Source: Opitutaceae bacterium (lineage in GTDB: Bacteria > Verrucomicrobiota > Verrucomicrobiia > Opitutales > Opitutaceae). Taken from it: a stretch of 40,674 nucleotides of DNA. The DNA lies in NCBI GenBank assembly GCA_025352845.1, contig JANXSC010000374.1, positions 1-40,674 of the forward strand, written 5' to 3'. This document shows, in pieces, positions 6,656 through 31,339 of the stretch; position 1 is the stretch's first letter; the number at the start of each line of letters is the position of its first letter. Made by a program: the position numbers and the translations under genes. The notes under the pieces are model-generated. The model was not told the origin of the DNA. It made no database searches and was given only the letters and a program-made list of their open reading frames with translations.

Positions 6656-8410
6656 ATGCACTCTCCCTCGTCGCGCCACCCTCGGTTCCGCGTGCTCCCA
6701 TCGCTGGCTGCCATCGTTTCGATTCTCGGCCTCTGCACCGCTCAACTCTCCGCCCAAGTCGATCGCGTCACCGGCCGGCCGTTCGCCACGCGCTCCGAGG
6801 TGATCGCGCAGCACGGCATGGTTTGCACCAGCCAGCCGCTCGCGACACAGGTCGGCCTCGACGTGCTCAAGCAGGGCGGCTCCGCCATCGATGCGGCCAT
6901 TGCGGCGAATGCCGCGCTCGGCCTGATGGAGCCCGTGAGCAACGGCATCGGCGGCGATCTCTTCGCGATCGTCTACGAGGCGAAGACGAAAAAGCTCCAC
7001 GGGCTCAACGCCTCCGGCCGCTCGGCACTCGGGCTCAGTGCGGCGCAGCTCAAGGCCGAACTCGCGAAGCTCGGCCGCACGACGATTCCCTCGCGCGGCT
7101 TTCTTCCCATCTCCGTTCCCGGCGCGGTCGACGGCTGGTTTATGCTGCACGGGAAATTTGGCCGCCTGCCGATGCAGCGCCTCCTCGCGCCCACGATTCT
7201 CTACGCGCGCGAGGGCTTTCCCGTCAGCGAACTCATCGCCCACTACTGGGCGCGCAGCGTGCCCGTGCTCGGCAAGGAGTCCGGCGCGTTTCTCGCGACC
7301 TACGCGCCCGGCGGCCGCGCGCCCGCCAAGGGCGAGATTTTCAAAAACCCCGATCTCGCGCGCACGCTCTCGCTCCTCGCGGATCAGGGGCGCGACTGTT
7401 TCTACCGGGGTGAAATCGCGGGGAAGATCGATGCGTTCTTCGCCGCGAATGGCGGTTGGCTGCGGAAAATTGATTTTGAAAAGCACACGTCGAACTGGGT
7501 CGAGCCCGTCTCGGTCAACTACCGCGGCTACGACGTCTACGAACTCCCGCCCAACGGTCAGGGCATCGCCGCGCTGCAAATGCTGAACATCCTCGAGGGT
7601 TTCGATCTGCGCGCGATGGGTTTCAATTCGCCCGACGCGCTGCACGTGATGATCGAGGCGAAGAAACTCGCGTTCGAGGATCGCGCGAAATTCTACGCCG
7701 ACCCGGAGTTTTCCAAGATTCCGCTCAAAGGCCTCCTCGCGAAAGAATACGCCGCGCAGCGCCGCGCGCTCATCAAACTCGATCGCGCCGGAAAATCCTA
7801 CGACACCGGCAACCCCGCATTACAGGAGGGCGACACCATCTACCTCACGACCGCGGACTCCGACGGTAACATGGTCTCGCTCATCCAGAGCAACTATCGC
7901 GGCATGGGCAGCGGCGTCGTCGTGCCGGGCCTTGGCTTCGGTTTTCAGAATCGCGGCGAGATGTTCACGCTGCAGGAGGGCCACGCCAACAACTACGCGC
8001 CGGGCAAGCGGCCGTTTCACACCATCATCCCGGCCTTCATCATGAAGGACGGCGCGCCGTGGGCGAGCTTCGGCCTGATGGGCGGCGCGATGCAGCCGCA
8101 AGGCCACGTGCAGATCGTCGTCAACCTGATCGATTTTGGGATGAACATGCAGGAGGCCGGCGACGCCGCGCGCTGGCAGCACGAGGGCTCGACCGACTAC
8201 GACACACCGAAGATGGCCACGGGAGGTTTCGTGAACCTCGAATCCGGCGTGCCGTGGGCGACGCAGGCCGAACTCAAGCGCCGCGGCCACGATCTGCGGA
8301 TCGATCTCGGCGGCTACGGCGGCTACCAGGCGATCCGCTGGGACGCGAAAAACAAAGTTTACCTCGGCGCGAGCGAGAGCCGGAAGGATGGGCAGGCGGC
8401 GGGGTGGTGA
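6656..8410 (+). CDS. ggt: Gamma-glutamyltransferase
   Basis: QVGLDVLKQGGSAIDAAIAANAALGLMEPVSNGIGGDLFAIVY; TIYLTTADSDGNMVSLIQSNYRGMGSGVVVPGLGFGFQNRG. Confidence 0.93.
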   Translation: MHSPSSRHPRFRVLPSLAAIVSILGLCTAQLSAQVDRVTGRPFATRSEVIAQHGMVCTSQPLATQVGLDVLKQGGSAIDAAIAANAALGLMEPVSNGIGGDLFAIVYEAKTKKLHGLNASGRSALGLSAAQLKAELAKLGRTTIPSRGFLPISVPGAVDGWFMLHGKFGRLPMQRLLAPTILYAREGFPVSELIAHYWARSVPVLGKESGAFLATYAPGGRAPAKGEIFKNPDLARTLSLLADQGRDCFYRGEIAGKIDAFFAANGGWLRKIDFEKHTSNWVEPVSVNYRGYDVYELPPNGQGIAALQMLNILEGFDLRAMGFNSPDALHVMIEAKKLAFEDRAKFYADPEFSKIPLKGLLAKEYAAQRRALIKLDRAGKSYDTGNPALQEGDTIYLTTADSDGNMVSLIQSNYRGMGSGVVVPGLGFGFQNRGEMFTLQEGHANNYAPGKRPFHTIIPAFIMKDGAPWASFGLMGGAMQPQGHVQIVVNLIDFGMNMQEAGDAARWQHEGSTDYDTPKMATGGFVNLESGVPWATQAELKRRGHDLRIDLGGYGGYQAIRWDAKNKVYLGASESRKDGQAAGW

Positions 8411-25690: not shown

Positions 25691-28600
25691 GTGGCACGGA
25701 GTCGGCTCGCGCGCCTTAATCCCGACGGCACGGTCGACAGCACGTTTAATCCCAGTCCCAACACGACAGTCGCAGCCCTGCTCGTGCAGCCTGACGGAAA
25801 AATCCTGGTTGGCGGGGGATTCACTACGATTGCCGGCACCACGCGGGTCCGCTTGGCGCGGCTCAATCCCAACGGCTCGCTCGACTCCGGCTTCACGGCC
25901 GGCGCCGATGGCAGCGTGTATTCGCTCGCCGTGCAGGCCGACGGAAAGATCCTGATTGGTGGCCTGTTTGCCATCGTTAACGAAACTCCGCGCAGCGCAA
26001 TCGCCCGCTTGAACGCCGACGGATCCCTCGACGCAGCGTTCAATTTGAACGTGACCGGCGTCAACGTCGGCACCCAACAACAGCTCGCAGCGATCGTCGT
26101 CCAGCCCGATGGCAAAATCTTGCTTGGGGGAAATTTTTCTCAAGTCGCGGGACAGCCGCGCGCGAGCCTGGCCCGCGTGAACCCGGATGGTTCACTCGAC
26201 AGCACGTTTAACATCGGCACCGGTTCGACCAGCGATGTGCAAACCATCGTTTTGCAGCCCGACGGGAAAATTCTGATCGGCGGCTCGTTTTCTCTGTTCT
26301 CCGGTCAGATCCGGCGCGGTATCGCCCGCCTCAACCAGGATGGATCGCTCGACAACACCTCGACCTCCGGCCCGAGCGGCGTCGTGCGGGTGATTGTGTT
26401 GCAGCCCGACGGAAAGTTCTTTGCCGGCGGAAATTTTAACGCCGTCGGCACGGTCCCACGCAGCCGCCTCGCGCGATTCAATTCCGACGGCACCCTCGAC
26501 AGCGCTTTCGACCCCGATGTGACCGGCGCCATCGGCTTATCTACCCCGGGAATCTATGCGATGGTCGCGCCAGCCCCAGGACAGTTGGTGTTCGCCGGCA
26601 CGTTCGCTGCCGTTTCCGCCCAGCCTCGGAGCGGTATCGCCCGGCTCGGCTCGCCGCTGCCGTCGATCACGACGCAACCCACCGGGCTCTTCGCCACTAG
26701 CGGCGCCAACGTCACCCTCACCGTGGCCGCCACCGGCGATGCGCTCCGCTATCAGTGGCGGCGCGACGGTGCCGACCTTCCCGGCGCCACCCAATCCACG
26801 CTCTCGCTCACCAATCTTCAGTCCAACGCCGGAGGCGCCTTCAACGTCGCCGTCGCCAATGCTTACGGTGCGAGCGTTTCCAGCTCCGCCGTCGTATCGC
26901 TCGCCACGCCGCCGACGGTCGCGTTTACGTTTTCGACCCTCGCCGGCTCGTCGACGGCGATCGGTCGCGTCGACGCCACCGGCGCTGCCGCGCGCTTCGA
27001 TCATCCCACCGGCCTGACGATCGATGCCGCGGGCATCATCTACACCGTCGACAGCGTGAGCAATTTCATCCGCAAGATCACGCCGGCCGGAGTCGTGACC
27101 ACGATCGCTTCGCAGGTTGGTCTCGGCATCGCCGTCGATGGCGCGGGCAATCTCTTCGTGGCCGACGCGCGCTCGCGCATCATCCGCATTTCGCCGACGG
27201 GTGTCTTCACCACCTTCGCCGGCTCCGCGACCGCGGGGCGCGCCGACGGCACGGGAGCCGACGCGCAATTCGACACGCCGAGCGCCGTCGCCCTCGATCG
27301 CGTGGGAAATATTTTCGTCGCCGACACCAACAACCGCACCATCCGCCGCATCACGCCCGCCGGGGTCGTCACCACGCTCGCGGGCACCGCGGGCCAATCC
27401 GGTTCCACCGATGGGGTCGGCGCGGAGGCGCGCTTCGCGTTTCCTCGTGGACTCGCACTCGACGTCGCGGGCAATCTCATCGTCGCCGACGGCGTCAGCG
27501 TCCGCAAGGTGACGCCCGTCGGCGTCGTCACCACCCTCACCACCGCGGCCAACGCTATCGGGGTCGCCACCGATCCGGCGGGCAACACCTACATCGCCGA
27601 AGTCGGCGCGCACACGATCCGCCGACTCGCGCCCGACGGCACAAACACACTCATAGCCGGCGCGACCGACGTCAGCGGCAGCGATGATGGCGCCGGTGCC
27701 ACCGCGCGCCTCAACAGCCCGTGGGGCCTCGTCGTTGATTCCACCGGCAACCTCTACGTCGCCGACAACGGCAACAACACGATCCGCAAGGGCACGGCGA
27801 GCGTGCTCCCTTTCGCGATCACACTGCCTCCCGCGCCGTCGCACTCGGCGGCCGGCGCCAGCGTCGCGCTCTCTGTCGGCGCCTCCGGCGGCAACCTCGC
27901 CTACCAGTGGAAGAAAGACGGCGCCATCATCGCCGGCGCGACCAACGCCGCCTTCACGTTGGCGAATCCCTCCGCCACCGCCGACATGGGATACTATTCG
28001 GCCGTGGTCACCAGCGCAGGCACGAGCGTCGAGACTGCGTCGGCGTTCCTCTCCGTCACCAATCCCGCCGCGCCCGGCCGCCTCATCAACGTCGCCACGC
28101 GCGGCCTCGTCCAGCCCGGCGGCGCGCTCACGCCCGGCTTCGTGCTGCGCGGGACCGGCACGAGGCAACTCGTCGTCCGCGGCGTAGGTCCGACCCTTCT
28201 ACGCTTCGGCCTCGGAGGTTCGCTCGCCGATCCGCGCTTCGAACTCGCACCGCTCGGCGGCGCGACGTTGCTCACCAACGACGACTGGGCCACCGGTGGC
28301 AGCACGCTCGCCGCATCGAGCGCCGCCGTCGGCGCGTTTCCGCTCGATCCGTTGTCGAAGGACGCCGCGGCCTTCACGACGCTCACGCCCACGGGCAACG
28401 GCACCGGCTACACCGTGCGCGTCACGGGTGCCACCGCCACCGACTCCGGCATCGCGCTCGCCGAAATCTACGACGCTGATCCGCTCACCTCGCCCGTGCA
28501 GATTGTGAATGTTTCCACGCGCGGCTTTGTCGGCACAGGTGCGAATGCGCTCGTCCCCGGTTTCGTCATCGGCGGCAGCGGTCCGCTCCAGCTTCTCATC

Positions 28601-28891
28601 CGCGCCGTCGGCCCCGGCCTCGCGCCGTTTGGCGTGACCGGCCTGCTCGCCGATCCGCAGCTCACTGTCACACCGCTCGGCAAAGACACGCCCGTCGCGA
28701 CCAACGACAACTGGGGCGGCACCGCCACGCTCACCGCTGCGTTCGCCGCCGCCGGCGCCTTCGCCCTCCCGCTCGATAGCAAAGACGCCGTCGTCCTACT
28801 GCGCCTCCCGCCCGGCGCCTACACCGTCACCGTCTCCGGCGTCGGCGGCACCACCGGCACCGCCCTCGTCGAAATCTACGAGGTGCCGTAG
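25691..28891 (+). CDS. Large secreted delta-60 repeat / Ig-like / NHL-repeat protein (frame open further 5', see findings)
   Basis: About seven copies of xLQPDGKILVGGxFxxxxGxxRxxLARLNPDGSLDxxF, Ig-like YQWRRDGADLPGAT..., NHL-like GNIFVADTNNRTIRRITPAGVVTTLAG, two C-terminal modules ending ALAEIYDADP and ALVEIYEVP. Confidence 0.88.
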   Translation: MARSRLARLNPDGTVDSTFNPSPNTTVAALLVQPDGKILVGGGFTTIAGTTRVRLARLNPNGSLDSGFTAGADGSVYSLAVQADGKILIGGLFAIVNETPRSAIARLNADGSLDAAFNLNVTGVNVGTQQQLAAIVVQPDGKILLGGNFSQVAGQPRASLARVNPDGSLDSTFNIGTGSTSDVQTIVLQPDGKILIGGSFSLFSGQIRRGIARLNQDGSLDNTSTSGPSGVVRVIVLQPDGKFFAGGNFNAVGTVPRSRLARFNSDGTLDSAFDPDVTGAIGLSTPGIYAMVAPAPGQLVFAGTFAAVSAQPRSGIARLGSPLPSITTQPTGLFATSGANVTLTVAATGDALRYQWRRDGADLPGATQSTLSLTNLQSNAGGAFNVAVANAYGASVSSSAVVSLATPPTVAFTFSTLAGSSTAIGRVDATGAAARFDHPTGLTIDAAGIIYTVDSVSNFIRKITPAGVVTTIASQVGLGIAVDGAGNLFVADARSRIIRISPTGVFTTFAGSATAGRADGTGADAQFDTPSAVALDRVGNIFVADTNNRTIRRITPAGVVTTLAGTAGQSGSTDGVGAEARFAFPRGLALDVAGNLIVADGVSVRKVTPVGVVTTLTTAANAIGVATDPAGNTYIAEVGAHTIRRLAPDGTNTLIAGATDVSGSDDGAGATARLNSPWGLVVDSTGNLYVADNGNNTIRKGTASVLPFAITLPPAPSHSAAGASVALSVGASGGNLAYQWKKDGAIIAGATNAAFTLANPSATADMGYYSAVVTSAGTSVETASAFLSVTNPAAPGRLINVATRGLVQPGGALTPGFVLRGTGTRQLVVRGVGPTLLRFGLGGSLADPRFELAPLGGATLLTNDDWATGGSTLAASSAAVGAFPLDPLSKDAAAFTTLTPTGNGTGYTVRVTGATATDSGIALAEIYDADPLTSPVQIVNVSTRGFVGTGANALVPGFVIGGSGPLQLLIRAVGPGLAPFGVTGLLADPQLTVTPLGKDTPVATNDNWGGTATLTAAFAAAGAFALPLDSKDAVVLLRLPPGAYTVTVSGVGGTTGTALVEIYEVP

Positions 28892-29099: not shown

Positions 29100-29687
29100 A
29101 TGAACTTGCTCCCCTGGCTCGTCGTCCCCGCCGCCTACCTGCTCGGCGGGGTGTCGCCCGGCTACTGGCTGGTGCGGCTCCGCACGGGTGAGGACGTGCG
29201 CACGGTCGGCAGCGGCACGACGGGCGCGACCAATACCGCGCGCGTGCTCGGCGGCGGCGGGTTCGTGCTCGTGCTCGCGCTCGATGCCGCGAAGGGCGCG
29301 GTGGCCGCCCTCGCCGCGCGTTGGGCGGGGCTCGACGGCGGCTGGGAATTTGCCGCGGCCCTCGCCGTCGTGGCGGGTCACGTGTGGCCGGTGCAACTAG
29401 GTTTCCGCGGTGGCAAGGGCCTCGGCCCGCTCCTCGGCGCATGGCTCGTGCTCGCGCCGCTCGCGATCGGCGGCTGTCTGCTCATCGGGGCCGCGGTGTG
29501 GGGTCTCACCCGGCGCCGCGTGCCCTCGGGGTTGTTCGGCGTGCTGTTGCTGCCGGGCGCGACATGGCTCGAAACCCGCTCGATGCCTGCCGCGGTTTTC
29601 ACAATGGTAACATTTGGCATTGTCGCCCTCGCCCATCGCTCGCATTTCATACCGGCCCCCAACGCCAACCCTCCTTCACCGTCATGA
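29100..29687 (+). CDS. plsY: Glycerol-3-phosphate acyltransferase PlsY
   Basis: YLLGGVSPGYWLVRLRTGEDVRTVGSGTTGATNTARVLG...LDAAKGAVAALAA...VVAGHVWPVQLGFRGGKGLGPLLGAWL. Confidence 0.92.
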   Translation: MNLLPWLVVPAAYLLGGVSPGYWLVRLRTGEDVRTVGSGTTGATNTARVLGGGGFVLVLALDAAKGAVAALAARWAGLDGGWEFAAALAVVAGHVWPVQLGFRGGKGLGPLLGAWLVLAPLAIGGCLLIGAAVWGLTRRRVPSGLFGVLLLPGATWLETRSMPAAVFTMVTFGIVALAHRSHFIPAPNANPPSPS

Positions 29688-31339
29688 ACCCCACCACCCC
29701 CACGCTGAGGATCAAGGTCGCCACGGAAGAGTGGGAGTTCGAGCAGATCCACCGGCTCAACTACCGGACCTTCGTGGAGGAGATCCCGCAGCACGCGCCC
29801 AACCCCGAGGGCCGGCTCGTCGATCGGTTTCACGCGGAGAACAAATACCTCATCGCGCTCAACGGCCGGGAGCTGGTCGGCATGGTGGCCCTGCGCGCCC
29901 AGCGGCCGTTCTCCCTCGATAGCAAGGTGCCCAATCTCGACGCCCATCTGCCCGCCGGCCGCAAGCCGATCGAGGCGCGCCTCCTCGCCGTCGTGCCCGA
30001 ATTCCGCAAGACGGCGGTCTTCGTCGAATTCTTCGAGCGCGTGGTCCGGCAGTGCCTCGACGATGGCTACGATCTCGCCGTGCTCTCGGGGACCACGCGC
30101 CAGTTGAAACTCTACCGCCACCTCGGCTGCACGCTCTTCGGCCCGCTCGTCGGCAGCGCCGGGGCGCAATACCAGCCGATGTATCTCACGTTCGAGGACT
30201 TTGGCCAGGCGACCGAGCGCAGCGCCGTTTTCCGCGATGTCCTGACCGGCGACCGCGACGCGACCCGCCCGCTCAATCTCCTGCCCGGCCCCGTGCTCAC
30301 CGCGCCCGAGGTCGATGCCGCCTTCACCGCTCCCGCGATCTCGCACCGCAGTCCGGCGTTCCTCGATCTGCTCGCCGGGCTCCGCTCGGGACTCTGCCGG
30401 CTCACCGGCGCGCGCGATGTGCAGGTGCTCGCCGGTTCCGGATCGCTCGGCACCGCGGTCGTCGCCGCGCAGCTCGCGTTGCGCACCACCACCGGGCTCG
30501 TGCTTTCCAACGGCGAATTCGGCGAACGCCTCGCCGGCGAGGCCCGCCGCGCCGGCCTGCGCTTCGACTGGATGCGGCTGCCATGGGGCGACACCTTCGA
30601 TCTCGAGCAGGTTCAGGCGTTTGTCGCCCGTGTGCCGCGCGGGGGCTGGGTGTGGTTCGTCCACCACGAGACCTCCACCGGGATCCTCAACCCCCTCGGC
30701 GAACTGAAACAACTCGCCGCCGATCACGGGCTGCACCTCTGCGTCGATTGCATCAGCTCGATCGGCGCGCTGCCCGTGGATTTGCGCGGCGTGCATCTCG
30801 CCACCGGCACGAGCGGCAAGGGCCTCGGCGCCTACCCCGGGCTCGCGCTGGTGTTTCACGACTACAACCCGCGCCCCGAGCCCGACCGACTGCCGAGCTA
30901 CATCGATCTCGGCCACTGGGCCGCGCACGCGAGCGCGCCGCATACCCACTCCTCCAACCTCATGGCCGCGCTCGCCACGGCCGTGACGCTCGCCACACCG
31001 GAGCGCATCGCGCGCATCGCCGCCAACGCCCGCTGGCTCCGCGAGGAGCTGCGCGCGCGGGGCTTCACGCTCGTCGCCCCCGATCACGCCGCGTGCCCGG
31101 CGGGCATCACGCTCGCCATCGAGGGTCCGATCACCGCGGCGCAGCTCGGCGAGGAGCTGGAGCAGCGCGGCTTCGCGCTCAACTTCCGCAGCAGCCACAT
31201 GCTCGCGCGCAACTGGATTCAGCTCTCCCTCCTCGGCGATCCGCCGCGCGCGGCCCTCGCGCGCCTGCTCCACACGCTGCGGCTGATCGTTGAGCCGGCT
31301 GCGACGCGGAACGGCGCGAGCACTCGCGTTACGCCATAG
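29684..31339 (+). CDS. Fusion: GNAT/FeeM-like N-acyltransferase + class V PLP-dependent aminotransferase
   Basis: N-term FEQIHRLNYRTFVEEIPQHAPN...DRFHAENKYLIALNGRELVGMVALR...EARLLAVVPEFRKTAVFVEF...LYRHLGC; C-term GSLGTAVVAAQLAL...HHETSTGILNPL...LCVDCISSIGALPVDL...GTSGKGLGAYPGLALVF (PLP Lys). Confidence 0.88.
   Translation: MNPTTPTLRIKVATEEWEFEQIHRLNYRTFVEEIPQHAPNPEGRLVDRFHAENKYLIALNGRELVGMVALRAQRPFSLDSKVPNLDAHLPAGRKPIEARLLAVVPEFRKTAVFVEFFERVVRQCLDDGYDLAVLSGTTRQLKLYRHLGCTLFGPLVGSAGAQYQPMYLTFEDFGQATERSAVFRDVLTGDRDATRPLNLLPGPVLTAPEVDAAFTAPAISHRSPAFLDLLAGLRSGLCRLTGARDVQVLAGSGSLGTAVVAAQLALRTTTGLVLSNGEFGERLAGEARRAGLRFDWMRLPWGDTFDLEQVQAFVARVPRGGWVWFVHHETSTGILNPLGELKQLAADHGLHLCVDCISSIGALPVDLRGVHLATGTSGKGLGAYPGLALVFHDYNPRPEPDRLPSYIDLGHWAAHASAPHTHSSNLMAALATAVTLATPERIARIAANARWLREELRARGFTLVAPDHAACPAGITLAIEGPITAAQLGEELEQRGFALNFRSSHMLARNWIQLSLLGDPPRAALARLLHTLRLIVEPAATRNGASTRVTP

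Follow-up and report, generated by a model that had tools for sequence, protein, structure and literature searches.

PlsY is regarded as the dedicated enzyme of a committed step in phospholipid synthesis. The O-acyltransferases known from bacterial aminolipid pathways are PlsC-like, PF19576 or alpha/beta-hydrolase proteins (PMC11631085, PMC12493201). In the OlsB/OlsA and GlsB/GlsA systems, the gene of a GNAT-type N-acyltransferase adjoins that of an O-acyltransferase, and an amino compound receives two acyl chains (PMC11631085). FeeM-type GNATs produce free N-acyl amino acids (PMC12479983, PMC11631085). The gene pair described here resembles OlsB/OlsA, GlsB/GlsA and OlsF in that a PF13444-type N-acyltransferase is found beside an O-acyltransferase. 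However, the O-acyltransferase of those systems is PlsC-like (PF01553) or belongs to PF19576, whereas that of the module belongs to the acyl-phosphate-using PlsY family (PF02660), and none of the systems in PMC11631085 has a fused PLP domain. The planctomycete ornithine lipid pathway OlsH/OlsI (PMC12493201) is comparable as a two-gene Planctomycetota aminolipid route outside OlsBA/OlsF; however, it consists of a GH3-like ATP-dependent ligase and an alpha/beta-hydrolase, protein families other than those of the module. The module also shares with FeeM and stieleriacine-type N-acyl amino acid synthases a GNAT domain that passes the PF21926 cut-off, but their clusters contain ThiF and nitroreductase genes, and the stieleriacine paper mentions neither an aminotransferase nor glycerol-3-phosphate (G3P). 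In the open-access literature on PlsY paralogs, GNAT-aminotransferase fusions and aminolipids (most subscription journals lie outside it), we found no description of the pair; it is absent from the aminolipid review (PMC11631085) and from the OlsH/OlsI (PMC12493201) and stieleriacine (PMC12479983) papers.

The window is the whole 40,674-nucleotide stretch of Opitutaceae DNA that was analyzed. The pair and its parts lie on its forward strand:

29100..29687, + strand: plsY2, first gene of the pair, encoding a PlsY-family membrane acyltransferase paralog of 195 aa (PF02660, AlphaFold model, residue matches)
29684..29687, + strand: ATGA shared by the end of plsY2 and the beginning of the fusion gene, which thus overlap (sequence)
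29684..31339, + strand: gene of the GNAT/class V PLP-enzyme fusion, 551 aa
29684..30238, + strand: N-terminal FeeM/Acetyltransf_5-type GNAT domain, about aa 1-185 (PF21926, PF13444, profile match to 5w8a, conserved residues)
30272..31288, + strand: C-terminal class V (AGT/PhnW-like) PLP domain, about aa 197-535 (TIGR03301, Foldseek)
30818..30820, + strand: PLP Schiff-base lysine K379, within GTSGKGLG (alignment of fusions and control aminotransferases)
31220..31222, + strand: Gln513, which replaces the AGT/PhnW substrate-carboxylate Arg (alignment of fusions with class V paralogs and 1vjo)

The plsY2 gene starts with ATG and ends with TGA at 29685-29687, and its overlap with the fusion gene likely reflects translational coupling. 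The first-pass annotation had placed both genes and the ATGA overlap exactly to the base, and its reading of the downstream frame as a single ORF joining a GNAT/FeeM domain to a class V domain agrees with Pfam matches above the cut-offs for both halves. Because gene order, strand and spacing are kept across several phyla, the two frames are real rather than chance. Current genome annotation labels ("glycerol-3-phosphate acyltransferase" and "aminotransferase class V") hide the cassette. A promoter and terminator scan found none, and no phage carriage of the module was found. Directly upstream of the pair, positions 25691-28891 encode a large predicted protein in which DUF5122 beta-propeller, NHL and Ig-like repeats occur; its gene is not conserved at other module loci.

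PlsY2 is encoded upstream of the GNAT gene on the same strand at all 36 loci checked. Ten loci share the -4 ATGA overlap (the window, L006, L025, L028, L034, L035, L036, L037, L097 and L104), and in most of the other pairs the two genes lie within a few tens of bases. When 384 genomes of the class were searched with a PlsY2-only profile, 18 scored at least 195 bits, the next score being 152; a GNAT gene followed PlsY2 in all 18, seven of which were new, versus none of four lower-scoring genes. Chance adjacency is rejected by these counts (36/36 loci and 18/18 profile-found PlsY2s), and plsY and the fusion do not vary independently; independent variation had been named in advance as evidence against a dedicated pathway. 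Fusions that lack PlsY2 are L026, L040, L098 and the divergent L107-L111, and stand-alone GNATs are L030, L043 and L029, the last from a Neomarinimicrobiota genome outside the main group.

An all-against-all comparison of flanking ORFs over about 39 loci revealed no third conserved gene. A larger operon that would name the substrate was rejected, since no flanking gene is common to more than three loci, and the neighbors bioD, rlmN and cmk-plsC, named by eye from the sequence, look incidental. In the cultured Cytobacillus spongiae (Bacillota), the pair is located on a 690-kb plasmid, where an LtaS-like gene overlaps the end of the fusion gene (L158:9602-11455; NZ_CP089998.1 205220-207073) and a gene for a TMEM164-family membrane protein lies upstream of PlsY2. 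The LtaS-like protein scores 657 bits against the NCBIfam lipoteichoic acid synthase model (cut-off 970). This context, at one locus, suggests a lipid or envelope role, and the two genes are possibly part of an extended version of the module. In Candidatus Electrothrix gigas, two ORFs of equal protein length (L027:6066-6596 and 6800-7330) lie just upstream of PlsY2; their first 40 residues are identical (CPTGAT... motif), which represents either a tandem duplication or an assembly artefact.

In the search of relatives, the fusion was found in 9 of 56 other genomes, the lower-scoring matches being ordinary aminotransferases. It was also found in further Verrucomicrobiota, in a Planctomycetaceae-titled metagenome-assembled genome (MAG) and in Ca. 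Electrothrix gigas, and the pair as such recurs in Verrucomicrobiota, in planctomycete- and Desulfobulbia-side genomes and on the one Bacillota plasmid. Most module genomes are MAGs, and mis-binning of single cases is possible. Conservation past close relatives had been put forward as a test of the pairing; the pair is present far outside them, in other phyla, and the idea that it is a local oddity of the genus was rejected. Few genomes have the GNAT family, and these are scattered: it was detected in 12 of 236 genomes of the window's class, in 7 of 258 of the Electrothrix class and in 16 of 294 of the phylum to which the planctomycete-titled MAG belongs, where five are divergent fusions.

A branch supported at 99/97 separates the module PlsYs, as one clade, from the housekeeping PlsYs of the same and other genomes. 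PlsY and fusion trees agree in placing the planctomycete-titled L025 and L097 among Opitutaceae and in grouping L094 and L095, from the Electrothrix class, with L101-L106. Distances between PlsY2s correlate with those between GNATs (r = 0.71, and 0.58 after removal of the housekeeping-PlsY signal; permutation p = 0.0005). These matching groupings and correlated distances are most simply read as joint transfer of the two genes. The pair is almost certainly a genuine functional unit.

The same Opitutaceae genome encodes one PlsX and, on another contig (G000:C42), a canonical, higher-scoring PlsY. The separate housekeeping plsY that the first-pass annotation had suggested looking for is thus present, and the window gene is not a plain sole copy. 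PlsY copy number was counted in 58 sampled genomes: at least two PlsYs are encoded in 29 of 40 genomes with the GNAT family versus none of 18 without it (Fisher p = 1.5e-7), the 29 including G285 and G290, where the second PlsY is not adjacent to the GNAT gene or adjacency is not visible. A few further PlsYs (L177-L180, from G093, G125 and G067) are intermediate between the housekeeping and module types, scoring about 150 bits with the PlsY2 profile. They have no GNAT gene nearby, G093 has two copies, and they are perhaps another PlsY paralog group.

PlsY2 of the window matches PF02660 with 121.9 bits (cut-off 24.1) and scores 99.6 bits against the curated equivalog TIGR00023, below its cut-off of 137.2. 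Its AlphaFold model (pLDDT 91.7) superimposes on aaPlsY (5xj6) with a TM-score of 0.79, and S38, R48, H94, K106 and H179 correspond to Ser35, Arg45, His92, Lys104 and His177 of aaPlsY. PlsY2 shares with aaPlsY (PDB 5xj5-5xj9) the PF02660 fold, the acyl-phosphate site (His92 and the G-G-K/R-G loop, GGKG) and a partial phosphate clamp (Ser35, Arg45). It differs in forming a separate clade, in which Ser142 is lost throughout and Asn180, Lys104 and Thr41 are relaxed. The complete G3P pocket (Ser35, Arg45, Lys104, Asn180; Ser142, His177) is not found in the window protein, which has Gly144 at the position of Ser142 and His182 at that of Asn180.

We compared the pocket, in aaPlsY numbering, between 30 housekeeping PlsYs and 37 module PlsYs, a set that includes L088, the non-adjacent PlsY of G285, which has a long branch and is of uncertain type. 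Residue roles follow the aaPlsY structures, where Ser142 touches the 2-OH of G3P (PMC5700162). This serine is present in all 30 housekeeping proteins and in none of the 37 module proteins; the register may shift by one residue in some rows, with a serine neighboring it there, so we claim only that the position is unconserved, and a hydroxyl nearby is still possible. Asn180 is kept in 20 of 37 versus 30 of 30, the Lys104 position is Arg in 12 of the module proteins, and the Thr41 position is Arg or Lys in 24. Ser35, Arg45, His92 and His177 are retained in nearly all of them. In aaPlsY, the N180H substitution nearly abolishes activity on G3P (PMC5700162), and since the window protein has His at this position, its activity may be low or altered. 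Earlier, this PlsY had been read as a plain standard step, a reading that the altered pocket does not support.

The GNAT domain scores 33.1 bits against FeeM (PF21926, cut-off 27; the Cytobacillus copy scores 33.4), 28.0 against Acetyltransf_5 (PF13444, cut-off 22.4) and 12.4 against the OlsB equivalog NF052554, far under the cut-off of 350; it is thus closer to FeeM than to the OlsB model. Its profile matches the autoinducer synthase 5w8a. Of 48 aligned rows, 47 keep the E97-x-R99-L-L motif and R108, and the remaining one has a gap; the alignment does not show the usual CoA-loop pattern R/Q-x-x-G-x-G/A. Absence of this pattern is expected for acyl-ACP-using relatives, and by homology only, the domain would use acyl-ACP.

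The PLP domain scores 27.6 bits against Aminotran_5 (PF00266, cut-off 21.5) and 129 bits against TIGR03301 (cut-off 360.8), and its best Foldseek matches are 1vjo (AGT) and 7e7g (AEPT). In the AlphaFold model of the fusion protein (pLDDT 78.6), the C-terminal part resembles alanine-glyoxylate and 2-aminoethylphosphonate aminotransferases. The domain has the fold and the PLP site of the class V aminotransferases AGT, PhnW and AepZ: K379, D355 and E329 are invariant, with K379 and D355 found in 40 of 40 fusions. Lysine also occupies the K379 position in all 15 control aminotransferases, ordinary class V paralogs taken either from related genomes or from genomes that bear the module. Loss of catalytic residues was looked for in both domains, and the GNAT core and the PLP Lys and Asp are conserved. 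However, the position of the substrate-carboxylate Arg (AGT Arg360), which is Arg in 15/15 controls and in 1vjo, is Gln513 in 40/40 fusions, and scores lie far under the NCBIfam equivalog cut-offs. S503 is invariant in the fusions only, and R502 was rejected as a universal stand-in for the lost Arg, because it is variable (Arg in 23 of 40). A PhnW-like domain C-terminal to another enzyme is also known from the PntC-AEPT fusion (6pd1), but the partner there is a phosphonate cytidylyltransferase and here a GNAT. The first-pass description of a complete class V aminotransferase domain is therefore half right: full length, PLP site and lysine stand, and the substrate-binding Arg does not.

The PLP domain is absent from L028, L036/L176, L093, L166 and L175, where PlsY2-GNAT remains. 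Thus, it is not always required, and the stable core of the module is PlsY2 plus GNAT. A search of these PlsY2-GNAT-only genomes for a separate substituting aminotransferase returned only ordinary class V paralogs, or none. The earlier proposal that an ordinary amino-acid aminotransferase at the C-terminus supplies the amine is not supported, given the invariant Arg-to-Gln exchange and the pairs lacking the domain. In L095/L112 (G412:C153), an in-frame stop or frameshift breaks the PLP domain while PlsY2-GNAT appears intact, reflecting decay or an assembly error. The divergent GNAT-PLP fusions without PlsY2 (L107-L111, from G613, G605, G717, G832 and G823) group together as a sister clade, in which the Gln is likewise invariant, and may reveal the ancestral activity.

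What might the module make? The layout is akin to that of OlsB/OlsA or GlsB/GlsA, but the O-acyltransferase is from an unrelated, acyl-phosphate-using family and the N-acyltransferase is fused to a PLP domain, which favors an amide-plus-ester lipid with an unusual amino head group. Since the catalytic residues of both fusion domains are kept, the pair extends far beyond close relatives and a second plsY accompanies a pair that does not vary independently, a dedicated lipid of this kind stays the leading idea. On balance, we lean toward a horizontally transferable cassette of two genes for a membrane or amphiphilic lipid in which a small head group containing an amino function carries two acyl chains, one bound through an amide and the other through an ester. 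As to which acyl donors, substrate and product are involved and in what order the steps run, we infer the following route: the class V PLP domain would make or reshape an amine-bearing head group, the recognition of which would not go through an alpha-carboxylate as it usually does; the FeeM-type GNAT of the same protein would N-acylate this head group from acyl-ACP; and PlsY2, drawing on acyl-phosphate from the genome's PlsX, would add a second acyl group to one of the hydroxyls of that molecule. The dedicated aminolipid proposed at first pass thus gains from the pairing, its conservation and the second plsY, and loses its ordinary amine-making aminotransferase and its standard PlsY step.

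A different role for the PLP domain is possible, though we rather doubt it: PlsY2 and GNAT may build the diacylated aminolipid on an amino acid or amine that is already available, with the PLP domain in an accessory role (other PLP chemistry or substrate recycling) and not as a head-group-making transaminase. This is a variant of the preferred explanation, and confidence in the two overlaps. It would account for the five loci with PlsY2-GNAT and no PLP domain (L028, L036, L093, L166, L175) and for the Arg-to-Gln exchange in all fusions; however, most members in the various phyla have the fused domain, and its PLP-site residues are fully conserved, which argues that it normally matters. We consider it unlikely that PlsY2 is a conditional G3P acyltransferase with no link to the product of the fusion, which would then be an N-acyl amino acid or amine secreted as a FeeM/stieleriacine-like amphiphile, and that the two genes are transferred together because both enzymes draw on a common acyl pool. 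The near-obligate pairing and common history of PlsY2 and GNAT speak against this separation, as does the loss of Ser142 in 37/37 with relaxation of Asn180, unexpected in a plain G3P enzyme, even if the fold (TM 0.79) and Ser35, Arg45, His92 and His177 persist in nearly all PlsY2s and FeeM-type GNATs do yield free products (PMC12479983, PMC11631085).

The most specific head-group idea compatible with the altered residues is an aminated glycerol-phosphate. In its narrowest form, which we regard as very improbable, the product would be a phosphatidic-acid look-alike built on, e.g., serinol phosphate: the PLP domain would aminate dihydroxyacetone phosphate, the GNAT would N-acylate it and PlsY2 would O-acylate the 1-OH. 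Retention of the phosphate-clamp residues Ser35 and Arg45 with loss of the 2-OH contact, a PLP domain without the carboxylate-binding Arg and the LtaS-like phosphoglycerol-transferase gene after the Bacillota copy are all in line with such a substrate. However, the clamp residues Lys104 and Asn180 are relaxed, Thr41 is often Arg, and the carboxylate of the amino donor would still require binding.

The cassette assigned above to an amide-plus-ester lipid is small, occurs in several phyla and is carried by a plasmid of a cultured Bacillota species, which makes it testable by expression and lipidomics. The boldest version of this reading, a new class of membrane lipids with mixed amide/ester diacyl chains and an aminated glycerol-phosphate-like head, made by an acceptor-switched PlsY and a GNAT-PLP fusion whose two genes have traveled together between phyla as a cassette, is a long shot. 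If true, the combination of an acyl-phosphate-using PlsY with a FeeM-type N-acyltransferase would represent a new enzymatic logic, and PlsY would have been recruited to another acceptor.
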